Under the pieces are notes generated by a model that was given only the letters and a program-made list of their open reading frames with translations, was not told the DNA's origin and did not search any database. DNA of 64,000 nucleotides, taken from Alphaproteobacteria bacterium. Its GTDB lineage: Bacteria > Pseudomonadota > Alphaproteobacteria > Micavibrionales > UBA2020. Position numbers and translations under genes: made by a program. This document shows, one piece after another, positions 19,445-35,722 of the stretch (positions within the stretch are counted from its first letter, which is position 1; every line of letters begins with the position of its first letter). The stretch spans positions 215,301-279,300 of the forward strand of contig JAICWS010000001.1 of assembly GCA_025934695.1 (NCBI GenBank), read 5' to 3'.

Positions 19445-19503
19445 GGGTCCTCAATTCCGTTATTTGGCAAAAATCCGCATAAGCGAAAATTCGCGGAGGG
19501 ATG

Positions 19504-28793: not shown

Positions 28794-29228
28794 GTCTGTT
28801 ATGGCCTTATCGCGTCAAAATTAAAATGTGAGAAATGCTTCGGGAGCTACGATACTTCCATCAGAACCGTTTCTCAAGCTTTCCGACGCCCGAAAACGGA
28901 TGGAAGTTCGCGTTGGGGGTGTCATACCCTGGTATGACTAAATGTGTGATAATATATATTATGGAAAATAAACGAGATACCAAGGACGCCGTATTTCCAA
29001 TGGCTTAATTCCAGCCTGACTATAAACTCACCATCTTCATCGCACAATGCGCTCGATGTGCACTGCACGATGCTTTCCGGGCGGATTTCATCCAGCAAAC
29101 CGGTTGATTGACGATGCCGATTGTCGCGGAGTTCATCGGCGCAGGTCCTTTTATCTGTTGCCATTATCATCGCCGCCGGGATTGCGTTGCTGGCCGATAT
29201 TCCGTGGCTGAACTCCAGCAAATTATAT
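28794..29228. other. AT-richer gene-poor stretch
   Basis: I see no convincing gene. Short open frames exist on both strands (28922–29221 minus; 29121 onward plus) but have poor composition and no ribosome sites. It carries the palindrome at 28921. A membrane-like segment (VLLSVAIIIAAGIALLADI) can be read on the plus strand, in frame with the next gene, but the promoter at 29229 argues against its use. Confidence 0.4.
28921..28938. promoter_or_regulatory. Operator-like palindrome
   Basis: GTCATACC and GGTATGAC are a perfect 8+8 inverted repeat with a 2-base spacer. The length and symmetry fit a helix-turn-helix dimer; the XRE gene is the nearest candidate regulator and target. Confidence 0.4.
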
Positions 29229-29257
29229 TTGACAGAATATGTATGGATTTGTTATGA
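29229..29257 (+). promoter_or_regulatory. Sigma70-type promoter of the tandem paralogue array
   Basis: TTGACA, 17 bases and TTATGA lie about 38 bases upstream of the ATG at 29295. Confidence 0.5.
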
Positions 29258-29294
29258 AAATATACCGCTTTCTTGCGAAGGAGCACCATACATA

Positions 29295-29834
29295 ATGATC
29301 GGACTGGACGGACATGGCTGGATCGGCCGCGATAAAAACGGCAATACGATCTACAAAAGCGACGATGACCTCGAGCGTGAACGGTGGCAGCGCGAAGCCG
29401 ACAAGTCGCGCCGCGAACAGCTCTATGTCTCCGAGGCCTATAAGGTCTTCTTCCTCACCAAGCAAACCGGTCCCGAGGGCTGCGACGACGGCCGCAACGC
29501 CTATATCTCGGTGAAGCCCTTCAGCGAGGTTCCGGCCGACGCTCTCGAGGAGATGAAAACCCGCGCCGAGCCCTGGAGCCCGGCCAGTCAGGTCCGCATC
29601 GAAGCGAAAGATCCGCTGCTCGTTTTCCACGACGACATTACCAAGACCGAGTCGAACATATATATCGGCGAACTGGACGCCGATGTGCGCCAGAAGCTGC
29701 GCGGCCAAGGTGCGAAAAACGCCTGGAGTGCCCTGTTCGATAAGGCCGCCGCCGCCAATCCCATTGCCGCCGTCACGGCGAAGGACGACGTCCAGGTTCA
29801 TCGTCCGCTGGCGCTCAAGAAGCCAGTGTTATAG
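29295..29834 (+). CDS. Uncharacterised tandem family member 1
   Basis: This 179-residue soluble protein starts MIGLDGHGWIGRDKNGNTIY and a charged helix (DDLERERWQREADKSRREQ). It then has the family core: LYVSEAYKVFFLTKQ, AYISVKPFSEVPADALEEMK, LLVFHDDITKTES, GELDADVR and a C-terminal RPLALKKPVL. The next two genes encode diverged copies of the core. The start was chosen from the promoter position, GAAGGAG before the ATG, and the absence of an N-terminal membrane helix in the copies. The family is not one I recognise and its function is unknown. The spacing to the next gene is 9 bases. Confidence 0.7.
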   Translation: MIGLDGHGWIGRDKNGNTIYKSDDDLERERWQREADKSRREQLYVSEAYKVFFLTKQTGPEGCDDGRNAYISVKPFSEVPADALEEMKTRAEPWSPASQVRIEAKDPLLVFHDDITKTESNIYIGELDADVRQKLRGQGAKNAWSALFDKAAAANPIAAVTAKDDVQVHRPLALKKPVL

Positions 29835-29843
29835 GAGCGCGCC

Positions 29844-30263
29844 ATGGTCATGGATGCCGACGGCAATATCCGCAACCGTGTCGAAACATTGTTCGTCAGC
29901 GATGAACACCAGCTGTTCTTTCTGACCGGCCAGCCGACCGGCAACGGACGCAAAGCGCGGATTTCCGTATTGCCGTTTCATGCGCTCGATGAAGAAACAT
30001 ATGCAGGCATGCGCAACAGCGCCACGATTTGGACGCCAAAAGAAAAATGTCTCATCACGATAAAGCCGGGCACGAATATCGTTACGTTCAGAGACGATGC
30101 GACAGGCGTCGAAACCGTCATTTCTCGCCGCGAGCTTGAACCTGACTTCAAGGGTACGAAAGGCATTTCGCCGGCTTTCGAAAGATATGCGCCGCCATCG
30201 ACGAAAACGGCACAGGCCATCACCATCCGGAAACCGCTGACATTCAGGAACGCTGCGCCATGA
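29844..30263 (+). CDS. Uncharacterised tandem family member 2
   Basis: This 139-residue protein is the shortest copy and lacks the charged N-terminal helix. Core: LFVSDEHQLFFLTGQ, ARISVLPFHALDEETYAGM, TIWTPKEKCLITIKPGT, IVTFRDDATGVETV, RRELEPDFKG and the C-terminal RKPLTFRNA. GGAG lies 4 bases before the ATG. The stop overlaps the next start by 4 bases. All three copies share the VSDEYK-type beta-strand, a PF-x-L-x(5-8)-M segment and a D-x-T-x-x-E segment. Confidence 0.7.
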   Translation: MVMDADGNIRNRVETLFVSDEHQLFFLTGQPTGNGRKARISVLPFHALDEETYAGMRNSATIWTPKEKCLITIKPGTNIVTFRDDATGVETVISRRELEPDFKGTKGISPAFERYAPPSTKTAQAITIRKPLTFRNAAP

Positions 30264-30781
30264 AAATGCGCGACGAGTTTGGTCCAAGTTACAGCGCCGG
30301 CGTCGGCTCCCATACCGCCGTCCCCACGCCGCCAAAACCGCGCGAAGAAGAGTTGTTTGTCTCCGACGAGTACAAGATTTTCATTATCGTGAATGCGGTC
30401 GATCCGGACACGCAGCGCTTGCATCCGATCGCCGTGCGTCCGTTTCATTTAATGCCGCCGGACGCACTCGGAAAGATGCTTCCCATCGCGAAGCCCTGCA
30501 GCGCAGGAAAATGCGCGGGCATCGACATATGGCCAAACGGACAAACGCTCATGTTCTCAGACGAGACCGGCGTGACCGTGGAAACATTCCCTGTCAGCGA
30601 GCTCGATCCTGAAGTTCGCGATCGGATCCAGAACGCTGACGGCAACCAGGATCCTTTCACGGCAAGCCTGTGGAAAAAATATCTGGATGCCGCATCGAAT
30701 GTCGTCCGGCCCGAGCCCCAGATCGCGACAGGCAGCACGCTGCCGTTCCGAAAGCCCATTACGCTGAAGCGGAACCCTTAA
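30260..30781 (+). CDS. Uncharacterised tandem family member 3
   Basis: This 173-residue protein has a Pro-rich linker (VPTPPKPREEE) before the core: LFVSDEYKIFIIVNA, PIAVRPFHLMPPDALGKM, LMFSDETGVTVETF, SELDPEVRDRI and the C-terminal FRKPITLKRNP. Two Cys (PCSAGKCAG) are unique to this copy. It overlaps member 2 by 4 bases, so the three form one transcription unit, convergent with the iron locus. The C-terminal (R/K)(K)P(L/I)(T/A)(L/F)(K/R) motif is common to all. Confidence 0.7.
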   Translation: MKMRDEFGPSYSAGVGSHTAVPTPPKPREEELFVSDEYKIFIIVNAVDPDTQRLHPIAVRPFHLMPPDALGKMLPIAKPCSAGKCAGIDIWPNGQTLMFSDETGVTVETFPVSELDPEVRDRIQNADGNQDPFTASLWKKYLDAASNVVRPEPQIATGSTLPFRKPITLKRNP

Positions 30782-31293
30782 AGCGCGATTTCCATGAAGA
30801 GCGTGTCGTAAGACGCGCCGTCGACATCAAAGACCTGCCGCTTCGTTTCCCGGAAGCCGAGGCTTTTGTAAAGCCCGATAGCAGCCATCTGCGTGACCGT
30901 GACATGCAGCTCAAGAATGCCATAGCCGAACCTTTCGGCATCATCCATCAGCGTGACCGCAAGACGCCTGCCCAGCCCCTGCCCGTGGTAATCGGGATGA
31001 AGATGCAGGTTGCAGAGCTCCGCGCGGCCATCGCCCTTGTTCTTGAGGCCGCCGAAGCCGATGAGTTCGCCAGAGGTTAAAAACAGGCCCAGCATTTCGC
31101 CATTGTCGGAAGCATATTTCTGCGCGCGCTCGAGGATGTCGCCGTGGAAGTCCGGATTCTGCACGAAACCCGCCGCGTTGCGGCCCAGCGACAGCGCATA
31201 AAGTTTGCGCAGCGGTTCCGCGTCCTTAGCCGAGAGCGGGCGGACGACCGGGACCCGCGACAGGTCCGGCTTTGGGCTTTTTGTTGCGGTCAT
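30778..31293 (-). CDS. GNAT-family N-acetyltransferase
   Basis: This 171-residue acetyltransferase has LIGFGGLKNKGDGRAELCNL, then the acetyl-CoA motif LHPDYHGQGLGRRLAVTLMD and IGLYKSLGFRETKRQVF. It overlaps the end of dapE by 68 bases, so it is the last gene of the iron-locus transcription unit. The ATG at 31293 was taken, as the ATG 21 bases upstream has no better site. The substrate is unknown; a role in modifying a metallophore or DAP-derived product is only a possibility from position. Confidence 0.85.
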   Translation of the reverse strand: MTATKSPKPDLSRVPVVRPLSAKDAEPLRKLYALSLGRNAAGFVQNPDFHGDILERAQKYASDNGEMLGLFLTSGELIGFGGLKNKGDGRAELCNLHLHPDYHGQGLGRRLAVTLMDDAERFGYGILELHVTVTQMAAIGLYKSLGFRETKRQVFDVDGASYDTLFMEIAL

Positions 31294-32608
31294 AATTCGA
31301 TACCGTTTCTTCAAAAATTTTTCGCAAATTAATCAGGTCATCCAGAGACGCACGCTCGTCGACCTGGTGCATGCCGCCTTTTGACAGGTAATCCTGCGCC
31401 TTGTGGCCGCACGGAATTCCGCCGCGCTCCGGCAGGCCGAGCTCGATGATTTCGGCGCCGGGGAAAAGCTTCGCGGCGAAGCGTCCGTCGGTCGTGCCGC
31501 CGCTGCCGTCCAGCTTCGCGTCTGTGCCGAGCGTGGATTTGATCGCGGCTTTCGCGGAATCCGCCAGCATGCCGGGCGCGCTGTAATAAGGCGCCGAGGC
31601 CGTGTCTTTGTTCGCCTTGACCGTGACATCCTTCAGCAGCGCGGCGTCAGGATGCTGCTTCGCCCAGTCCGGCGGATTGGCGAGCGCATCATTGATCCAT
31701 GTTTCGAGGCTCTCGGGCGTCTGGGACGGCGTGAAGCGAATGTTCCAGAGCGCCTGCGCCTCGCCGGGAATAATGGCGCTGGCATTGAAATCGCCGGACT
31801 TGAGCGCGACGGCCTCGAAATTCGTATCGGGGAAATTGGCGTTGCCGTCGTTCCACGCCTTGCTGTTGAGAATGGCGATGGCGAGCGACAGCGCGCGATT
31901 TGGGTTTTCGAACAGCTCCTGGTAGGCGGCATGCCCCTGCACGCCTTTCACGTTGAAAGTTCCGACCAGGCTGCCGCGGCGGCCGATCTTGATGTGGCTG
32001 CCCAGCGTATCCTGCGACGAGGGCTCGCCGACAATGAAGGCGTCAGGCTCCTCACCCTTGTCTTTCATCCATTTCAGCACTTTTTCGGTGCCGTTGACGG
32101 CGGCCCATTCCTCGTCGGTCGTCAGGATCATCGTGACCTTGATGTTGCCGGAGGCTTTCAGCTCGTCGAGCTTTTCCCCGATCGCGCTGATAAAGGCGGC
32201 GACGCTGCCTTTCATGTCGGTCACACCGCGGCCATGCAGGTATCCGTCCTCTATCCTGCCGCCGTACGGATCATCCGACCACTTCGCGTCATCGCCCGGC
32301 GGCACGACGTCGAGATGGCCGATATAGCAGATATGCTTGTCCGGTTTCCCGAACGACCATTCGAGAACGAGGTTTTCGACCTTATAGTCCCATTTCGGAT
32401 GATCGCCTTCGAACGCCTGGCGCGTGGCTGTCGCGCCCGCTTTCAGCCCTGCGGCGGCCGCGACGTCCAGGCTTTTCTGCGCCGCGGGATAATCCTTCGC
32501 GTCGATGGGCGTGACGCTGGGCACGCGGACGAGCGCCTGGGCAAGTTTCACCGTCGCGTCCTGCGCGGCGTCGATATCTTCCTTGTGCTGAAGGTCACGC
32601 GGCGGCAT
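31226..32608 (-). CDS. dapE: Succinyl-diaminopimelate desuccinylase
   Basis: This is a 460-residue M20 metallopeptidase-fold enzyme that hydrolyses N-succinyl-LL-DAP to succinate and DAP for lysine and cell wall synthesis. Metal and catalytic motifs: GHLDVVPPGDDAKW, GRGVTDMKGS, TTDEEWAAVNGTEKVL, GEPSSQDTLG, IKIGRRGSL, VKGVQGHAAYQ, GGTTDGRF and MHQVDERA. It is longer than the usual 375–400 residues, with about 40 extra N-terminal residues and a Pro/Lys tail. The start overlaps the nicotianamine-synthase-like gene by 14 bases. The unusual operon context, in an iron locus, raises the question of a role beyond lysine. Confidence 0.9.
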   Translation of the reverse strand: MPPRDLQHKEDIDAAQDATVKLAQALVRVPSVTPIDAKDYPAAQKSLDVAAAAGLKAGATATRQAFEGDHPKWDYKVENLVLEWSFGKPDKHICYIGHLDVVPPGDDAKWSDDPYGGRIEDGYLHGRGVTDMKGSVAAFISAIGEKLDELKASGNIKVTMILTTDEEWAAVNGTEKVLKWMKDKGEEPDAFIVGEPSSQDTLGSHIKIGRRGSLVGTFNVKGVQGHAAYQELFENPNRALSLAIAILNSKAWNDGNANFPDTNFEAVALKSGDFNASAIIPGEAQALWNIRFTPSQTPESLETWINDALANPPDWAKQHPDAALLKDVTVKANKDTASAPYYSAPGMLADSAKAAIKSTLGTDAKLDGSGGTTDGRFAAKLFPGAEIIELGLPERGGIPCGHKAQDYLSKGGMHQVDERASLDDLINLRKIFEETVSNYDRNKKPKAGPVAGPGRPPALG

Positions 32609-33413
32609 GGGCGTCGCGTTCGTAATAGCGGCTGGTGTTGATGCGGCGCGGGTCGACGGCGGTCTTGGCGACCTGGCGGAACCCCTCTTCCGGCAGTTCC
32701 GCCGCTTTATAGAGGAATTGATAAGCGCCTTCGGAATCACGCACGATCATGGCGCAGTTGCGGCTGCGCAGCTGGCGGTAGACTTCTTCGCGGCCCTGCA
32801 GCAGGCTCGCGCAGATCACCAGTTCGTTGTCGCAAGGAACATATTGCAGCGCGTCCATGCAGCGGATATCGACATCATTCGCGACGCCAATTTTTCTGCT
32901 GAGCCGTCGCGCCAGATCACAGGCTTCGGCATCAAAATCGACGCAGGTCACTTTCACGCCGGGAAGATGGCGCGCGAGCAGGAAGGCGGTCAGCGGCAGC
33001 GCGCCCGAGCCCAGGAAGCTGATCGTCTCGAAGCGGCGCGTTTCGAACAGTTCTTTCTCGGCGCGGCAGAGTTCCTGATATTCCGGATAATACCAGAATT
33101 TCGTCACATCGCAGACATCGCAGGAAATCAGGTGCCGTGCCCAGTATTTTTCCATCTCGCATTCCGCGGCGCCGCACAGGGCGGGAAGGTATTCAAGCTC
33201 CGTCGCGAGCGCGGGCGCATTGAGCAGGTCGTTAGAAATTCCTGCCGACTGGCAGTGCGCCAGCGTCCGCACGAGTTCGGTCAGCTGCGCATTCACGCGC
33301 GGATTTGCGGGAGAGAGGTCCTGCTCCGTCGACAGCAGGCTGTAGCTGCGGCGGATCGTTTCGACCGCGTGCGCTTTCAGCTCGGCATGGGGCATCCAGT
33401 GGTCGTCGGCCAT
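32595..33413 (-). CDS. Nicotianamine-synthase-like aminobutyrate transferase (metallophore biosynthesis)
   Basis: This 272-residue protein has the nicotianamine synthase layout. An N-terminal helical domain contains ECEMEKYWARHL (residues 84–95, including the conserved Glu). It is followed by FWYYPEYQELCRAEKEL and a Rossmann SAM domain opening with FLGSGALPLTAFLLARHLPG (133–152) and VTCVDFDAEACDLARRL (155–171). The family moves aminobutyrate from SAM onto an amine: nicotianamine in plants, staphylopine and pseudopaline precursors by CntL in bacteria. No opine dehydrogenase or EamA exporter is adjacent, so the product is open. It lies 16 bases after the FTR1-fusion gene and overlaps dapE. It is less conserved at the C-terminus (RRINTSRYYE). 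Confidence 0.8.
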   Translation of the reverse strand: MADDHWMPHAELKAHAVETIRRSYSLLSTEQDLSPANPRVNAQLTELVRTLAHCQSAGISNDLLNAPALATELEYLPALCGAAECEMEKYWARHLISCDVCDVTKFWYYPEYQELCRAEKELFETRRFETISFLGSGALPLTAFLLARHLPGVKVTCVDFDAEACDLARRLSRKIGVANDVDIRCMDALQYVPCDNELVICASLLQGREEVYRQLRSRNCAMIVRDSEGAYQFLYKAAELPEEGFRQVAKTAVDPRRINTSRYYERDAHAAA

Positions 33414-33429
33414 GTCGGGGAAGTCCTGT

Positions 33430-34962
33430 TCAGAAGACGGTTTCGTATTCCAGCTTGAGGCGCGTCGCGATGTTGGCGGCGACACCGCTGACGCCGGCCA
33501 GCAGGGCCGCTTCGTATTTCAGTCCGCCGGCGATTTCGCCATAGGCGGCGGGGCCGATGTAGTGTTCCTGCCGGCTGAAGTGACCAAGCGTATTGTCCTG
33601 GCCGAAATCGCTCTGGATCTCGAAACCGGGCTCGAAGTGCATGTTGTAGCGGTAGCGGCTGCTCCAGACGAGGCTGACGTCGGGGCCGCCGGCGGCATTC
33701 GGACCAATTTCCTGCGCCACGCCGATATTCGCCACGTGCAGGAATTTGCCCGACTGTTTTTCCAGCAGGAGCTTTGCCTCGATATCGTCGGCGCCATCAT
33801 GATGCGTCGCATGGCCATAAGCCAGCAAAGCGCCGGCGTCGAGCCATTTCGCTCCCTGCTCCCAGAATTGCAGCGTATTTTCCCACTCGGAAGCCGATAT
33901 TTCGGCGTCCTTGCCAGGCTCGCGCGACATGTCGAGAGTGATTTCCGTCTGCCAGCGGTCGGTCGGCGCATAGCCGATCTCTACCTGCTGCTCCTGCCCG
34001 AGATTCTTCGATTTGTCGCCGTCGAAGGTGCTGACGAAGTTATATTCAAGTTCCGCCTCGCCCTTGTTGACGATCGGCGAATAAATTTTGTCGATCGCGA
34101 AGGCCGAATGCGACAGGACCAAGGCCGCGATAAAGACCGCCGCCGCCATGTTCCGGCGCTGCATCTTCCCGTCGATGACGGCGATCATGCCGATCAGCGC
34201 CGCCAGCGTCCCGCCATAGATCATCAGCTGGATCGTCGTCGGCTTCGCGCAATAGCCGATCAGGCTATGCAGGGCCTGGCCGACCAGGCTGCCATCGGAG
34301 AGCAGCCAGGACGTGTCCCACACCGGATGCGACATGGTGTCGAAATATCCGGCGGCCGTGAGGAAGCCGACGGCCTGCGCGGCGAGACCCGCCACCAGCA
34401 GCATCAAAATCCAGCTCGTCACCTGCAGCATGTATTTGGCCGACATGCGGATGAGCCCGGCGTAAAAGGCGACGCCTGCCGCCGTGCCGAGGAGAATCCC
34501 GAGCAGCGAGCCGGAAATGATGCTTGTCCCCGTCTCGCCCGAAGCGATCATGCCGTAGATGAACAGGACAATTTCAGATCCTTCGCGCAGCATGGCGAGG
34601 GCGATGATGGCCGATAGCGAATAGCGTGGGAGATTGCCTGCCGTGACGTCCATGCCGACCTGGCGGAGCTTCGCGGACATGTCACGGACATGCTTGCGCA
34701 TCCACAAAACCGTCCAGCCGATGAACATGGCGGCGGTGAACAGCACGCCTGCGTTAAACAGTTCCTGTCCCGCGCCCTGGGCCATGTTCGAAATCGTGTC
34801 GGCGAAATAGGCGACCAGGCCGGCGCCGAAGACGCCTGCGAGCGCGCCGCCGACAATCCAGTACAAACGGCCCGGCAGGTCGCGCGTGGCGGCCAGCACG
34901 ATGCCGAGGATCAGCGAAATTTCAAGGGATTCTCTGAAAATGACGATGGCGGTGGACAGCAT
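33430..34962 (-). CDS. FTR1-type iron permease fused to an outer-membrane beta-barrel domain
   Basis: This is a 510-residue protein. Residues 1–265 form a seven-helix FTR1 permease with the two iron-binding signatures FRESLE (9–14) and REGSE (126–130). Residues 267–290 are a perfect signal-peptide-like stretch (MQRRNMAAAVFIAALVLSHS, then AFA). Residues 291–510 are beta-rich with alternating hydrophobics (AELEYNFVSTFDG, WQTEITLDMS, GFEIQSDFGQD, GGLKYEAALL) and end LKLEYETVF, a C-terminal Phe signature of outer-membrane barrels. No stop or frameshift separates them. The natural reading is two proteins: a permease and a separately exported barrel, produced by cleavage or internal initiation at 34164. 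It is cotranscribed with the cupredoxin upstream. Confidence 0.82.
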   Translation of the reverse strand: MLSTAIVIFRESLEISLILGIVLAATRDLPGRLYWIVGGALAGVFGAGLVAYFADTISNMAQGAGQELFNAGVLFTAAMFIGWTVLWMRKHVRDMSAKLRQVGMDVTAGNLPRYSLSAIIALAMLREGSEIVLFIYGMIASGETGTSIISGSLLGILLGTAAGVAFYAGLIRMSAKYMLQVTSWILMLLVAGLAAQAVGFLTAAGYFDTMSHPVWDTSWLLSDGSLVGQALHSLIGYCAKPTTIQLMIYGGTLAALIGMIAVIDGKMQRRNMAAAVFIAALVLSHSAFAIDKIYSPIVNKGEAELEYNFVSTFDGDKSKNLGQEQQVEIGYAPTDRWQTEITLDMSREPGKDAEISASEWENTLQFWEQGAKWLDAGALLAYGHATHHDGADDIEAKLLLEKQSGKFLHVANIGVAQEIGPNAAGGPDVSLVWSSRYRYNMHFEPGFEIQSDFGQDNTLGHFSRQEHYIGPAAYGEIAGGLKYEAALLAGVSGVAANIATRLKLEYETVF

Positions 34963-34989
34963 CTCGAAATCCGCTTTGTTCTTGTTCTT

Positions 34990-35319
34990 TTACTGGGCCT
35001 TGATGGTGCCGACCGTCGTATCCTTGTGGAAATCATCAAATATTCCATAGACACCCGGATCGAGCGGGCCGATGAGGACGGTAATCTCCTCTCCTCCCTT
35101 AACGACCTTCTCGCGGTTCAGGTCGTAGCTTTCGAATTCGGACGGTGTCTTGTCCGTATTTTTTACCGTAATCCGGACCTTTTTGCCAGCGGGAATTACC
35201 AGTTGCTGGGGCACAAATTTATGGTCTTTCAGCGTCAGAACGTAATCGTCGGCCATAGCGATCCCTGCCATGAGCAGATACGCACAGCCGACGATCAGAG
35301 CAAAAGTATAGCGGATCAT
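34990..35319 (-). CDS. Periplasmic cupredoxin-like protein of the iron permease
   Basis: This 109-residue protein has a signal peptide MIRYTFALIVGCAYLLMAGIAMA. The cupredoxin-like fold has YVLTLKDHKFVPQQLVIPAG, ITVKNTDKTPSEFESYDL and NREKVVKGGEEITVLIGPL, then PGVYGIFDDFH. This is the EfeO-N/Cupredoxin_1 type found next to FTR1 permeases; the Glu/Asp/His set in EFES and DDFH probably binds iron or copper and aids oxidation or delivery. The start has GAAGG 6 bases before it. It is the first gene of the unit, preceded by a Fur site and a structured leader. Confidence 0.85.
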   Translation of the reverse strand: MIRYTFALIVGCAYLLMAGIAMADDYVLTLKDHKFVPQQLVIPAGKKVRITVKNTDKTPSEFESYDLNREKVVKGGEEITVLIGPLDPGVYGIFDDFHKDTTVGTIKAQ

Positions 35320-35375
35320 TGACCTTCTTCCGTGTATCCCCCTGAACGGCTTCATTCCCCTGCTTGTATCCCTCT

Positions 35376-35419
35376 CCCGCCACAGCCAAGCCCGAAAACC
35401 GGACTAACACCGTGGCGGG
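35376..35419 (-). promoter_or_regulatory. Nested hairpin in the leader of the iron operon
   Basis: On the minus-strand RNA the outer stem CCCGCCAC / GTGGCGGG encloses the inner perfect stem AGTCCG-GTTTT-CGGGCT. There is no U-tract, so it is not an obvious terminator. It lies 57 bases upstream of the cupredoxin start. It may regulate translation or stability. Confidence 0.45.
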
Positions 35420-35483
35420 GGGATCTTCACTTACACGACGAAGCTTCTTGCCAGGTTGGTTATTACCTTCTTCTTTTATGATA

Positions 35484-35502
35484 TTGCAAATCATTCTCAT
35501 TT
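35484..35502 (-). promoter_or_regulatory. Fur box upstream of the iron operon
   Basis: On the minus strand AAATGAGAATGATTTGCAA has the 7-1-7 symmetry of Fur sites (TGAGAAT-G-ATTTGCA). It is the best iron-regulator match in the window and lies 165 bases before the cupredoxin start. It predicts repression when iron is plentiful. Confidence 0.7.
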
Positions 35503-35722
35503 GTAAATAGGAGTTTTCCCGGCTTTCGGACGGGATGGAAAATAACCATAGGTATCAACTAGTTATTATTTCCATATATTTTAGCGCCCGGTTTAGGATG
35601 GCTCTTCTGTTTCGACCTCCTCCATCGGCGACTCAAAGAAATGATGTAGCAATCAAGTTTCCAGTTTCCCTCCGGTTTCAGGCCCCTTAATCTTCTAGGG
35701 AATTACTTGGGGGGAGGAGCAC
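35503..35722. other. Intergenic region between the iron operon and the reductase gene
   Basis: AT-richer sequence without a gene. It holds promoters for divergent units; no clear consensus was picked out. GGGGGGAGGAG before 35723 is a strong ribosome site. Confidence 0.4.

Follow-up and report, generated by a model that had tools for sequence, protein, structure and literature searches.

The locus considered here lies in a 64,000-nucleotide stretch of DNA (the window) from a bacterium of the alphaproteobacterial order Micavibrionales, the analyzed genome of which measures 4.1 Mb. Five codirectional genes on the minus strand of the window encode, in order, a cupredoxin-like protein, a fusion of an FTR1 iron permease with a beta-barrel, a nicotianamine-synthase-like enzyme (NAS), a DapE-like M20 amidohydrolase (DapE2) and a GNAT acyltransferase. 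The question raised by this arrangement is which of its neighbors NAS works with. The original prediction, made from the sequence of the window, had joined NAS with FTR1 and the cupredoxin, and had treated DapE2 and GNAT as bystanders. Comparison across genomes demonstrates that the conserved unit is NAS-DapE2-GNAT, not NAS-FTR1; the link of NAS with DapE2 and GNAT is both the stronger and the more interesting one. The explanation that we favor, with moderate confidence, is that the locus encodes a pathway, controlled by Fur, that makes an aminobutyryl amino-acid chelator through acylation and deacylation instead of an opine dehydrogenase; an optional module for Fe(II) import would lie in front of it.

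The evidence for the conserved unit is as follows (G and L numbers are our handles for the genomes and loci of relatives). NAS, DapE2 and GNAT are adjacent in all ten genomes of the family that have DapE2, the analyzed genome included, and a divergent aldo/keto reductase (AKR) gene flanks the trio in nine of these ten loci; in the tenth, that of G006, the contig ends there. By contrast, the cupredoxin and FTR1 genes adjoin NAS in only two of the ten, namely the analyzed genome and G001, and they are also absent at an eleventh NAS locus of the family, that of G017. That is, the neighbors that recur from genome to genome are not those that the original prediction had put forward; for DapE2 and GNAT the same comparison is strongly positive. 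Beyond the family, the adjacent trio recurs in G233 (RI_95). In Azospirillum sp. CAG:239, NAS is divergent from a fur-DapE2-GNAT cluster, the Fur family of its fur gene being confirmed, and in G104 NAS is divergent from DapE2, after which the contig ends. G033 and G042 carry a DapE2-GNAT pair apart from NAS, and in G036 the contig ends within DapE2; NAS is 0.84 Mb away from DapE2 in G033, and on another contig in G036 and G042. GNAT follows DapE2 in 14 of the 14 loci in which the contig continues (those of G036 and G104 end), and G022 has NAS-GNAT alone. At a further locus, L130 of G251, NAS is divergent from an M20-GNAT-M20 arrangement, with a DapE2-like loop in only one of the two M20 enzymes.

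The association also holds at the level of gene content. We searched 55 relatives, the analyzed genome among them, with both NAS and DapE2. NAS was found in 19, and NAS-linked DapE2 (at least 62% identity) in 13, all of them among these 19; the other DapE-type matches among those listed are 37-43% identical. A DapE2 profile gave three matches of 740-795 bits in 385 genomes of the class, the next being at 278 bits, and all three genomes have NAS. The class samples used for NAS and for DapE2 were taken as one identical set, as their number and handles agree. Counted by genus, NAS occurs in 4 of 4 genera with DapE2 against 10 of 30 genera (p 0.008); in the class, leaving aside the analyzed genome, the counts are 2 of 2 versus 13 of 384 (p 0.001). 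The genome-level value, p 2e-8, is inflated by kinship.

All five proteins score above the curated Pfam cut-offs, i.e., Cupredoxin_1 at 92.3 bits, FTR1 at 123.3 (cut-off 25.3), NAS (PF03059) at 79.6 (cut-off 27.1), Peptidase_M20 at 108.5 for DapE2 and Acetyltransf_1 at 64.9 for GNAT. The five codirectional genes, whose ends were checked, and the presence of a NAS-family enzyme among them are as originally predicted. Gaps of 27 and 16 nt separate the cupredoxin gene from FTR1 and FTR1 from NAS, respectively, and overlaps of 14 and 68 nt join NAS to DapE2 and DapE2 to GNAT. NAS and FTR1 are present once each in the analyzed genome. The features of the operon, all on the minus strand, are these:

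35478..35507, minus: promoter-like -35/-10 pair TTTACA-18-TATCAT, with a Fur-like site between and over the two boxes (promoter scan; motif 13/15)
35368..35445, minus: 5' untranslated RNA element, with a small hairpin CUUCG..UGAAG and a long hairpin that has an invariant AGA bulge and a covarying upper stem
34990..35319 (alternative start 35355), minus: cupredoxin-fold secreted protein with an EFES..LNREK motif, lacking the type-1 copper ligand set
34177..34962, minus: FTR1 iron permease domain with two R-E-x-x-E motifs (Pfam, alignment)
34096..34164, minus: signal-peptide-like segment MQRRN..SHSAFA, followed by IDK, between permease and barrel (putative cleavage)
33430..34095 (model begins 34068), minus: 12-strand outer-membrane-type beta-barrel fused to FTR1
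32595..33413, minus: nicotianamine-synthase-like enzyme, PF03059
31226..32608, minus: DapE2, a DapE-like M20 metallo-amidohydrolase paralogue
31373..31435, minus: DapE2-specific loop LPERGG..Y..GG, directly before the last metal-ligand His (21 residues, against 5 in the housekeeping DapE)
30778..31293, minus: GNAT acyltransferase with an NxxGF(V/I)Q-type motif

Enzymes of the conserved unit

NAS is related to the structures of MtNAS (E 1.3e-12) and CntL (E 7.3e-5), and the closest solved structures are 3fpe and 3o31. Its residues E86 and Y112 align with chain positions 81 and 107 of MtNAS, which we take to be the active-site residues E81 and Y107; the exact counterpart of the Glu is one of E84, E86 and E88. 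E84, E88 and Y112 are invariant in 11 aligned sequences, and E86 is replaced by Gln in one. An active-site Glu and Tyr are described for the family, as E77 and Y106 of AtNAS1 and their MtNAS counterparts, in the part of PMC10248798 available to us, as is the reaction, in which NAS-family enzymes (MtNAS, CntL and those of plants) move aminobutyrate from S-adenosylmethionine to an amine. Judged by this kinship, the window enzyme is a putative S-adenosylmethionine-dependent aminobutyryl transferase. It scores 24.9 bits against the NCBIfam CntL equivalog, far from the cut-off of 350. The closest named records are metagenome-assembled genomes labelled Alphaproteobacteria, Micavibrio and others; plasmids gave three records, and IMG/VR gave no match. 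In a NAS tree, the enzymes that accompany DapE2 are spread over more than one clade (four label changes). The rows of G118 (two), G237 (two) and G054 were left out of this tree as poor or partial family members, and G061 as too short; its long branches were flagged as unsure, and it is used solely for the statement on clades.

Other surroundings of NAS were seen as well. In G017 (L029 and L083) and G420 (L131), NAS genes adjoin an ABC transporter composed of an ATPase and an FtsX/MacB-type permease, and at L131 a DUF3299 protein is also present. This context may be metal-linked; neither DUF3299 nor FtsX is mentioned in the part of PMC10957091 that was available. L133 (G271), L136 (G118) and L139 (G237) have two NAS-family genes per contig, and a methyltransferase-like gene precedes NAS at L133 and L036.

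The fourth gene had been read as DapE. It is indeed M20 and DapE-like, but it is not the housekeeping enzyme, which is a separate gene on contig C1 that scores 520.6 bits versus 323.5 for DapE2, the two being 42% identical. The separate gene on C1, the gap in identity between DapE2 and other DapE-type proteins, and the class-wide gap in score together rule out that a housekeeping DapE merely happens to adjoin NAS. DapE2 is further set apart by a loop before the last metal-ligand His, which comprises 21-22 residues (LPE.GG..Y..GG) in 15 of 15 NAS-linked sequences aligned versus 5 in the housekeeping DapE; it is absent from the latter, from the typed H. influenzae DapE and from one of the two G251 enzymes.

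One may ask whether DapE2 and GNAT are instead a back-up of lysine and diaminopimelate metabolism for times of iron limitation, merely sharing the promoter of NAS. DapE2 does retain the DapE catalytic residues, judged by eye, and it passes one of two DapE equivalog models (NF009557, 325.5 bits against a cut-off of 284; TIGR01246 fails, 262.8 against 361.8). However, the same genome has a full DapE, DapE2 is marked by a conserved loop of its own, and its tie to NAS holds also where the two genes are not neighbors. We therefore regard this alternative as improbable. The nearest solved relative of GNAT, HP0935, accepts free amino acids and also a protein as substrates for acetylation, as far as the available part of PMC12273574 describes it. 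Plasmids gave 24 records for GNAT, with at most 36% identity among the 15 listed.

The FTR1 module in front of NAS

The distribution of FTR1 differs from that of the conserved unit. Among 18 genomes of the family, 3 have both an FTR1 permease and NAS, 8 have NAS only, 6 have FTR1 only and 1 has neither (Fisher p 0.05; the genomes are related, and some are 77-88% complete). Eleven of the 12 cupredoxin-FTR1 loci that were fetched belong to genomes without NAS. A Fur-like site precedes cupredoxin-FTR1 in 10 of the 11 loci scanned, and a Fur-family gene adjoins it in several, as seen by eye and confirmed at L118. Neighbors and distribution thus rule out FTR1 as a conserved partner of NAS.

The association is nonetheless real. 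In G002-G005 and G008, a scar that resembles the 3'-terminal codons of the barrel gene persists between the leader and NAS, with Smith-Waterman scores of 27 in G008, 16 in G002, 15 in G005, 14 in G003 and 15 in G004. None of 300 shuffles scored as high in any case, the shuffle maxima being 12-15 (15 for G008). The G008 scar is clear; the other four are modest, and those of G003, G004 and G005 are near-copies. Three g2 loci, which lack the leader, score 10-11, i.e., at chance. It follows that the link with FTR1 predates the two genomes in which it survives, and the ancestor of genus g1 and its sister g4 probably had FTR1 genes here that were later lost in the five relatives. A recent insertion of cupredoxin-FTR1 into two genomes is ruled out by the same remnants. 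What stands of the predicted NAS-FTR1 partnership is therefore a shared operon in the analyzed genome and G001 and the scars in five relatives; FTR1 is accessory, as most trio loci lack it, and is best described as a real but dispensable partner, i.e., an optional module.

These data bear on the simplest form of the original prediction, namely a single uptake system in which the NAS product is exported, captures iron and delivers it to FTR1 by way of the cupredoxin. Such a system would agree with the common operon and promoter of NAS and FTR1 in the analyzed genome and G001, and with the scars, which suggest that the two were linked in the ancestor of g1 and g4. But in 8 family genomes without an FTR1 permease match (some of them 77-84% complete) the trio persists behind a comparable Fur-like site, six family genomes have cupredoxin-FTR1 without NAS, and the operon contains no exporter gene. 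A single uptake system is thus unlikely in our view.

The FTR1 domain has the motifs R10-E11..E14 and R126-E127..E130, which are invariant in six aligned rows, and scores 114 bits against the EfeU equivalog, short of its cut-off of 255. Modelled alone, the barrel has 12 strands with a mean pLDDT of 92.5, whereas the whole FTR1-barrel protein gives a poor model (pLDDT 60). Its best structural matches are FapF (Z 21.4, 204 aligned residues, 2.4 A), a COG4313 channel (Z 19.8) and KdgM (Z 18.8); a modelled fold shared with these channels does not indicate a function. No Pfam family was found for the barrel (1 of 17 members matched, E 0.05), and the window barrel had no match in PHROGs. All six fused proteins aligned, from six genomes (window 33430-34962, L020, L115-L118), have a signal-peptide-like segment between permease and barrel, and free-standing barrel genes with a signal peptide of their own occur in several relatives, also next to FTR1. 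The likeness of the linker to those signal peptides suggests that export is followed by cleavage of the fusion, which would separate an inner-membrane permease from an outer-membrane barrel. A literature search joining FTR1, cupredoxin, beta-barrel and outer membrane returned only PMC11966278, and the word fusion is absent from the part of its text available to us. As for the predicted cupredoxin, the fold is borne out by Pfam, but the type-1 copper ligand set is lacking: the mature window protein has no Cys, and an alignment of 14 rows, judged by eye, has no conserved Cys or His column, although the acidic EFES..LNREK motif is kept.

Promoter and leader RNA

The Fur-like site, TGAGAATGATTTGCA, agrees with the Fur consensus at 13 of 15 positions and lies inside the TTTACA-18-TATCAT pair at 35507-35478. 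The promoter scan found 2 promoter-like sites versus 1.7 in shuffles, which proves little by itself. The Fur-like site, on the other hand, is retained in relatives as well as present where originally predicted: sites of at least 13/15 precede NAS in 12 of 17 upstream regions scanned (L021-L028, L030, L033, L084 and L132), including 8 of 8 family loci (L021-L028), when order-1 random sequence would give 0.2 such sites per 64 kb and strand. The scan left out the NAS region of G042 and the DapE2 region of G036. Reading this motif as Fur rather than Zur is our own, so that Fur control is putative; it is on account of this site that we tie the pathway to iron. A second Fur-like site, equal in score to that of the operon, lies at position 19502 of the window.

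Between the promoter and the first gene is a structured element of 78-82 nt, which was found in 7 genomes, always before this operon. Its first 28 nt are identical in all seven; the longest invariant runs in NAS, DapE2 and AKR are 9, 14 and 8 nt, respectively. The long hairpin has an invariant bulge of 3 nt (AGA). In its upper stem, five pairs have changed on both sides, 99.4% of the cells are paired and none of 500 shuffles reaches the covariation score; the lower helices never vary and are hence uninformative on covariation. The structure was drawn from RNAfold predictions of these same sequences, which biases the comparison with slid versions in its favor. Five of the seven sequences, folded singly with shuffles, gave z values of -4.8 to -5.7.

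Might this conserved block instead encode a leader peptide, or be a stretch of DNA to which a protein binds? In the genomes inspected by eye, one frame translates as LRRVSEDPPA, and the lower helices are invariant. On the other side stand the compensatory pairs in the upper stem, the lengths of 78, 80, 81 and 82 nt, which shift the reading frame of the 3' half, and the 28 nt without any change across seven genomes. We consider either of these alternatives to a structured RNA to have a small chance of being right.

The element keeps its position both where the cupredoxin gene comes next and where NAS does; it therefore acts, if at all, on the operon rather than on a single gene. It occurs in 7 of 143 relatives, the analyzed genome included, and in the class of 385 only in the analyzed genome. 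Within that genome there are one exact and two near matches, the nearer of which, L062, looks like chance; no second copy was seen. Rfam 15 has no match at the gathering score (best 14.4 bits versus 60, on the other strand, E 1.4), and IMG/VR holds no exact copy of the leader core. A weak match to the leader model in G013 (L128, 4323-4425, minus strand, 21.9 bits) falls inside an aminotransferase-like open reading frame (ORF) and is probably due to chance. The element may be a new RNA that senses a metal or a metabolite, and the seven sequences provide a starting set for it.

The proposed pathway and its likeness to known systems

In the pathway that we favor, the operon would consist of two modules, a biosynthetic core (NAS, DapE2 and GNAT) and an optional module for Fe(II) import. 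NAS would move the 2-aminobutyrate of S-adenosylmethionine onto the amine of a starter amino acid, GNAT would add an acyl group and DapE2 would remove it, for protection or for tailoring of the product. Lysine and arginine biosynthesis use such a cycle of N-acylation and deacylation, and by analogy a cycle of N-acylation, aminobutyryl transfer and deacylation would be the simplest use of the three enzymes. The product would be a nicotianamine-like amino-acid chelator made without an opine dehydrogenase. In the other module, the outer-membrane barrel, the cupredoxin-fold periplasmic protein and the FTR1 permease would together import Fe(II). Under iron shortage, Fur would leave the promoter and both modules would be expressed, with the structured RNA at the start of the message as a second control on whichever gene comes first.

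Whether the product leaves the cell depends on the transporters. The original prediction had noted the absence of an opine dehydrogenase, a TonB receptor and an EamA exporter. None of these is among the ten window proteins scanned, but an MgtE-type transporter gene does lie beyond the divergent AKR gene, the only importer or exporter gene among those ten. (Elsewhere in the window, on the plus strand, three tandem ORFs at 29121-29834, 29844-30263 and 30260-30781, i.e., within 29121-30781, are mutually alike by eye; they have no homologue in the relatives' loci compared, and the latter two have no Pfam or PHROG match.) MgtE is found beyond AKR also in G001 and G008, an EamA gene two genes after the trio in G002, TauE in G006 and G009, and a DMT_6 protein after NAS in CAG:239. 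In RI_95, an MntP-type gene, for a putative manganese efflux pump, directly precedes NAS-DapE2-GNAT (L082, 9310-9876, plus strand), and the metal may therefore not be iron alone. An initial statement that no transporter adjoins the trio was accordingly dropped. The opine dehydrogenase family PF10100 matched none of 18 genomes, but the control genomes were silent too.

These observations can be taken to mean that NAS, DapE2 and GNAT make a secreted metallophore, with an exporter and receptor that vary between genomes or are encoded elsewhere. The CntL products characterized so far are metallophores that the cell secretes, and some zincophore clusters include an acetyltransferase (both according to the part of PMC7438024 at hand); EamA is the exporter type of CntL clusters and stands near the G002 trio, DMT_6 follows NAS in CAG:239, and Fur-like control would suit a secreted product. 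On the other hand, no transporter is common to the trio loci (flanks inspected by eye and in part by scanning; the search did not extend to receptors and exporters encoded elsewhere), and the EamA protein of G002 is without homologues in the window and in the other 14 loci compared. Secretion of this kind is possible, if doubtful.

Nicotianamine serves as an intracellular iron(II) buffer in plants. A chelator made by NAS, DapE2 and GNAT under iron control might likewise be kept in the cell as an iron(II) buffer, under the joint control of Fur and of a leader RNA of a new kind that responds to the product or the metal; we offer this as a speculation. If true, bacteria would have a counterpart of the plant buffer, with implications for the handling of labile iron(II) in cells.

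Several findings weigh against the Fur-controlled acylation/deacylation pathway as a whole. Six of the 19 NAS-bearing relatives lack DapE2 (G017, G020, G022 and G052, and G021 and G054 with weak NAS matches), as do 11 of the 14 NAS-bearing genomes of the class, and so not every NAS needs DapE2. DapE2 may have plain desuccinylase activity, having passed the NF009557 cut-off for DapE, and the GNAT fold is promiscuous. Five of the 17 regions before NAS have no Fur-like site (L029 of G017, L082 of G233, L130 of G251, and L032 and L034 of G036 and G033), nor do the regions before DapE2 in G033 and G042 (L143 and L144). The leader RNA is known from only one genus and its sister genus. Finally, single transporter genes do lie near some trios, so export is possible.

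The NAS-DapE2-GNAT set nevertheless occurs in distant alphaproteobacteria, mostly under a Fur-like site, and suggests an undescribed route to a small metal-binding molecule in some uncultured members of the class. To our knowledge, the bacterial NAS products characterized so far all need an opine dehydrogenase for their completion; the replacement of this enzyme by an M20 hydrolase and an acyltransferase points to a different chemical class. No paper joining "nicotianamine synthase" and "desuccinylase" was found in a search to which subscription papers were outside the scope, and searches on M20/acetyltransferase metallophores, on Fur in alphaproteobacteria and on the genomic context of NAS showed no such cluster among the matches listed.

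The closest known systems are the CntL-CntM clusters for opine metallophores (staphylopine, pseudopaline, bacillopaline), an example of which is on a plasmid of Paenibacillus sp. 37. They share the NAS-family aminobutyryl transferase in a metal-linked cluster and, as described in the part of PMC7438024 available, combine it with an opine dehydrogenase and transporters; in the present operon, no opine dehydrogenase and no Nik-type importer were found, and a DapE-like M20 enzyme, GNAT and Fur-like sites are present instead. The FTR1 systems for ferrous uptake (EfeU, FtrABCD, FetMP) likewise have an FTR1 permease and a cupredoxin-fold periplasmic protein under a Fur-like site. Here there is no further Efe or Ftr component among the operon genes, the permease is fused to a barrel behind a signal-peptide-like segment, and the cupredoxin lacks type-1 copper ligands. 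Archaeal MtNAS and plant nicotianamine synthase belong to the same family, PF03059, whereas the enzyme described here is in an operon with M20 and GNAT partners. Lastly, DapE itself, the succinyl-diaminopimelate desuccinylase, is of the same M20 family as DapE2, which differs from it by its loop, its tie to NAS and its presence as a second copy.

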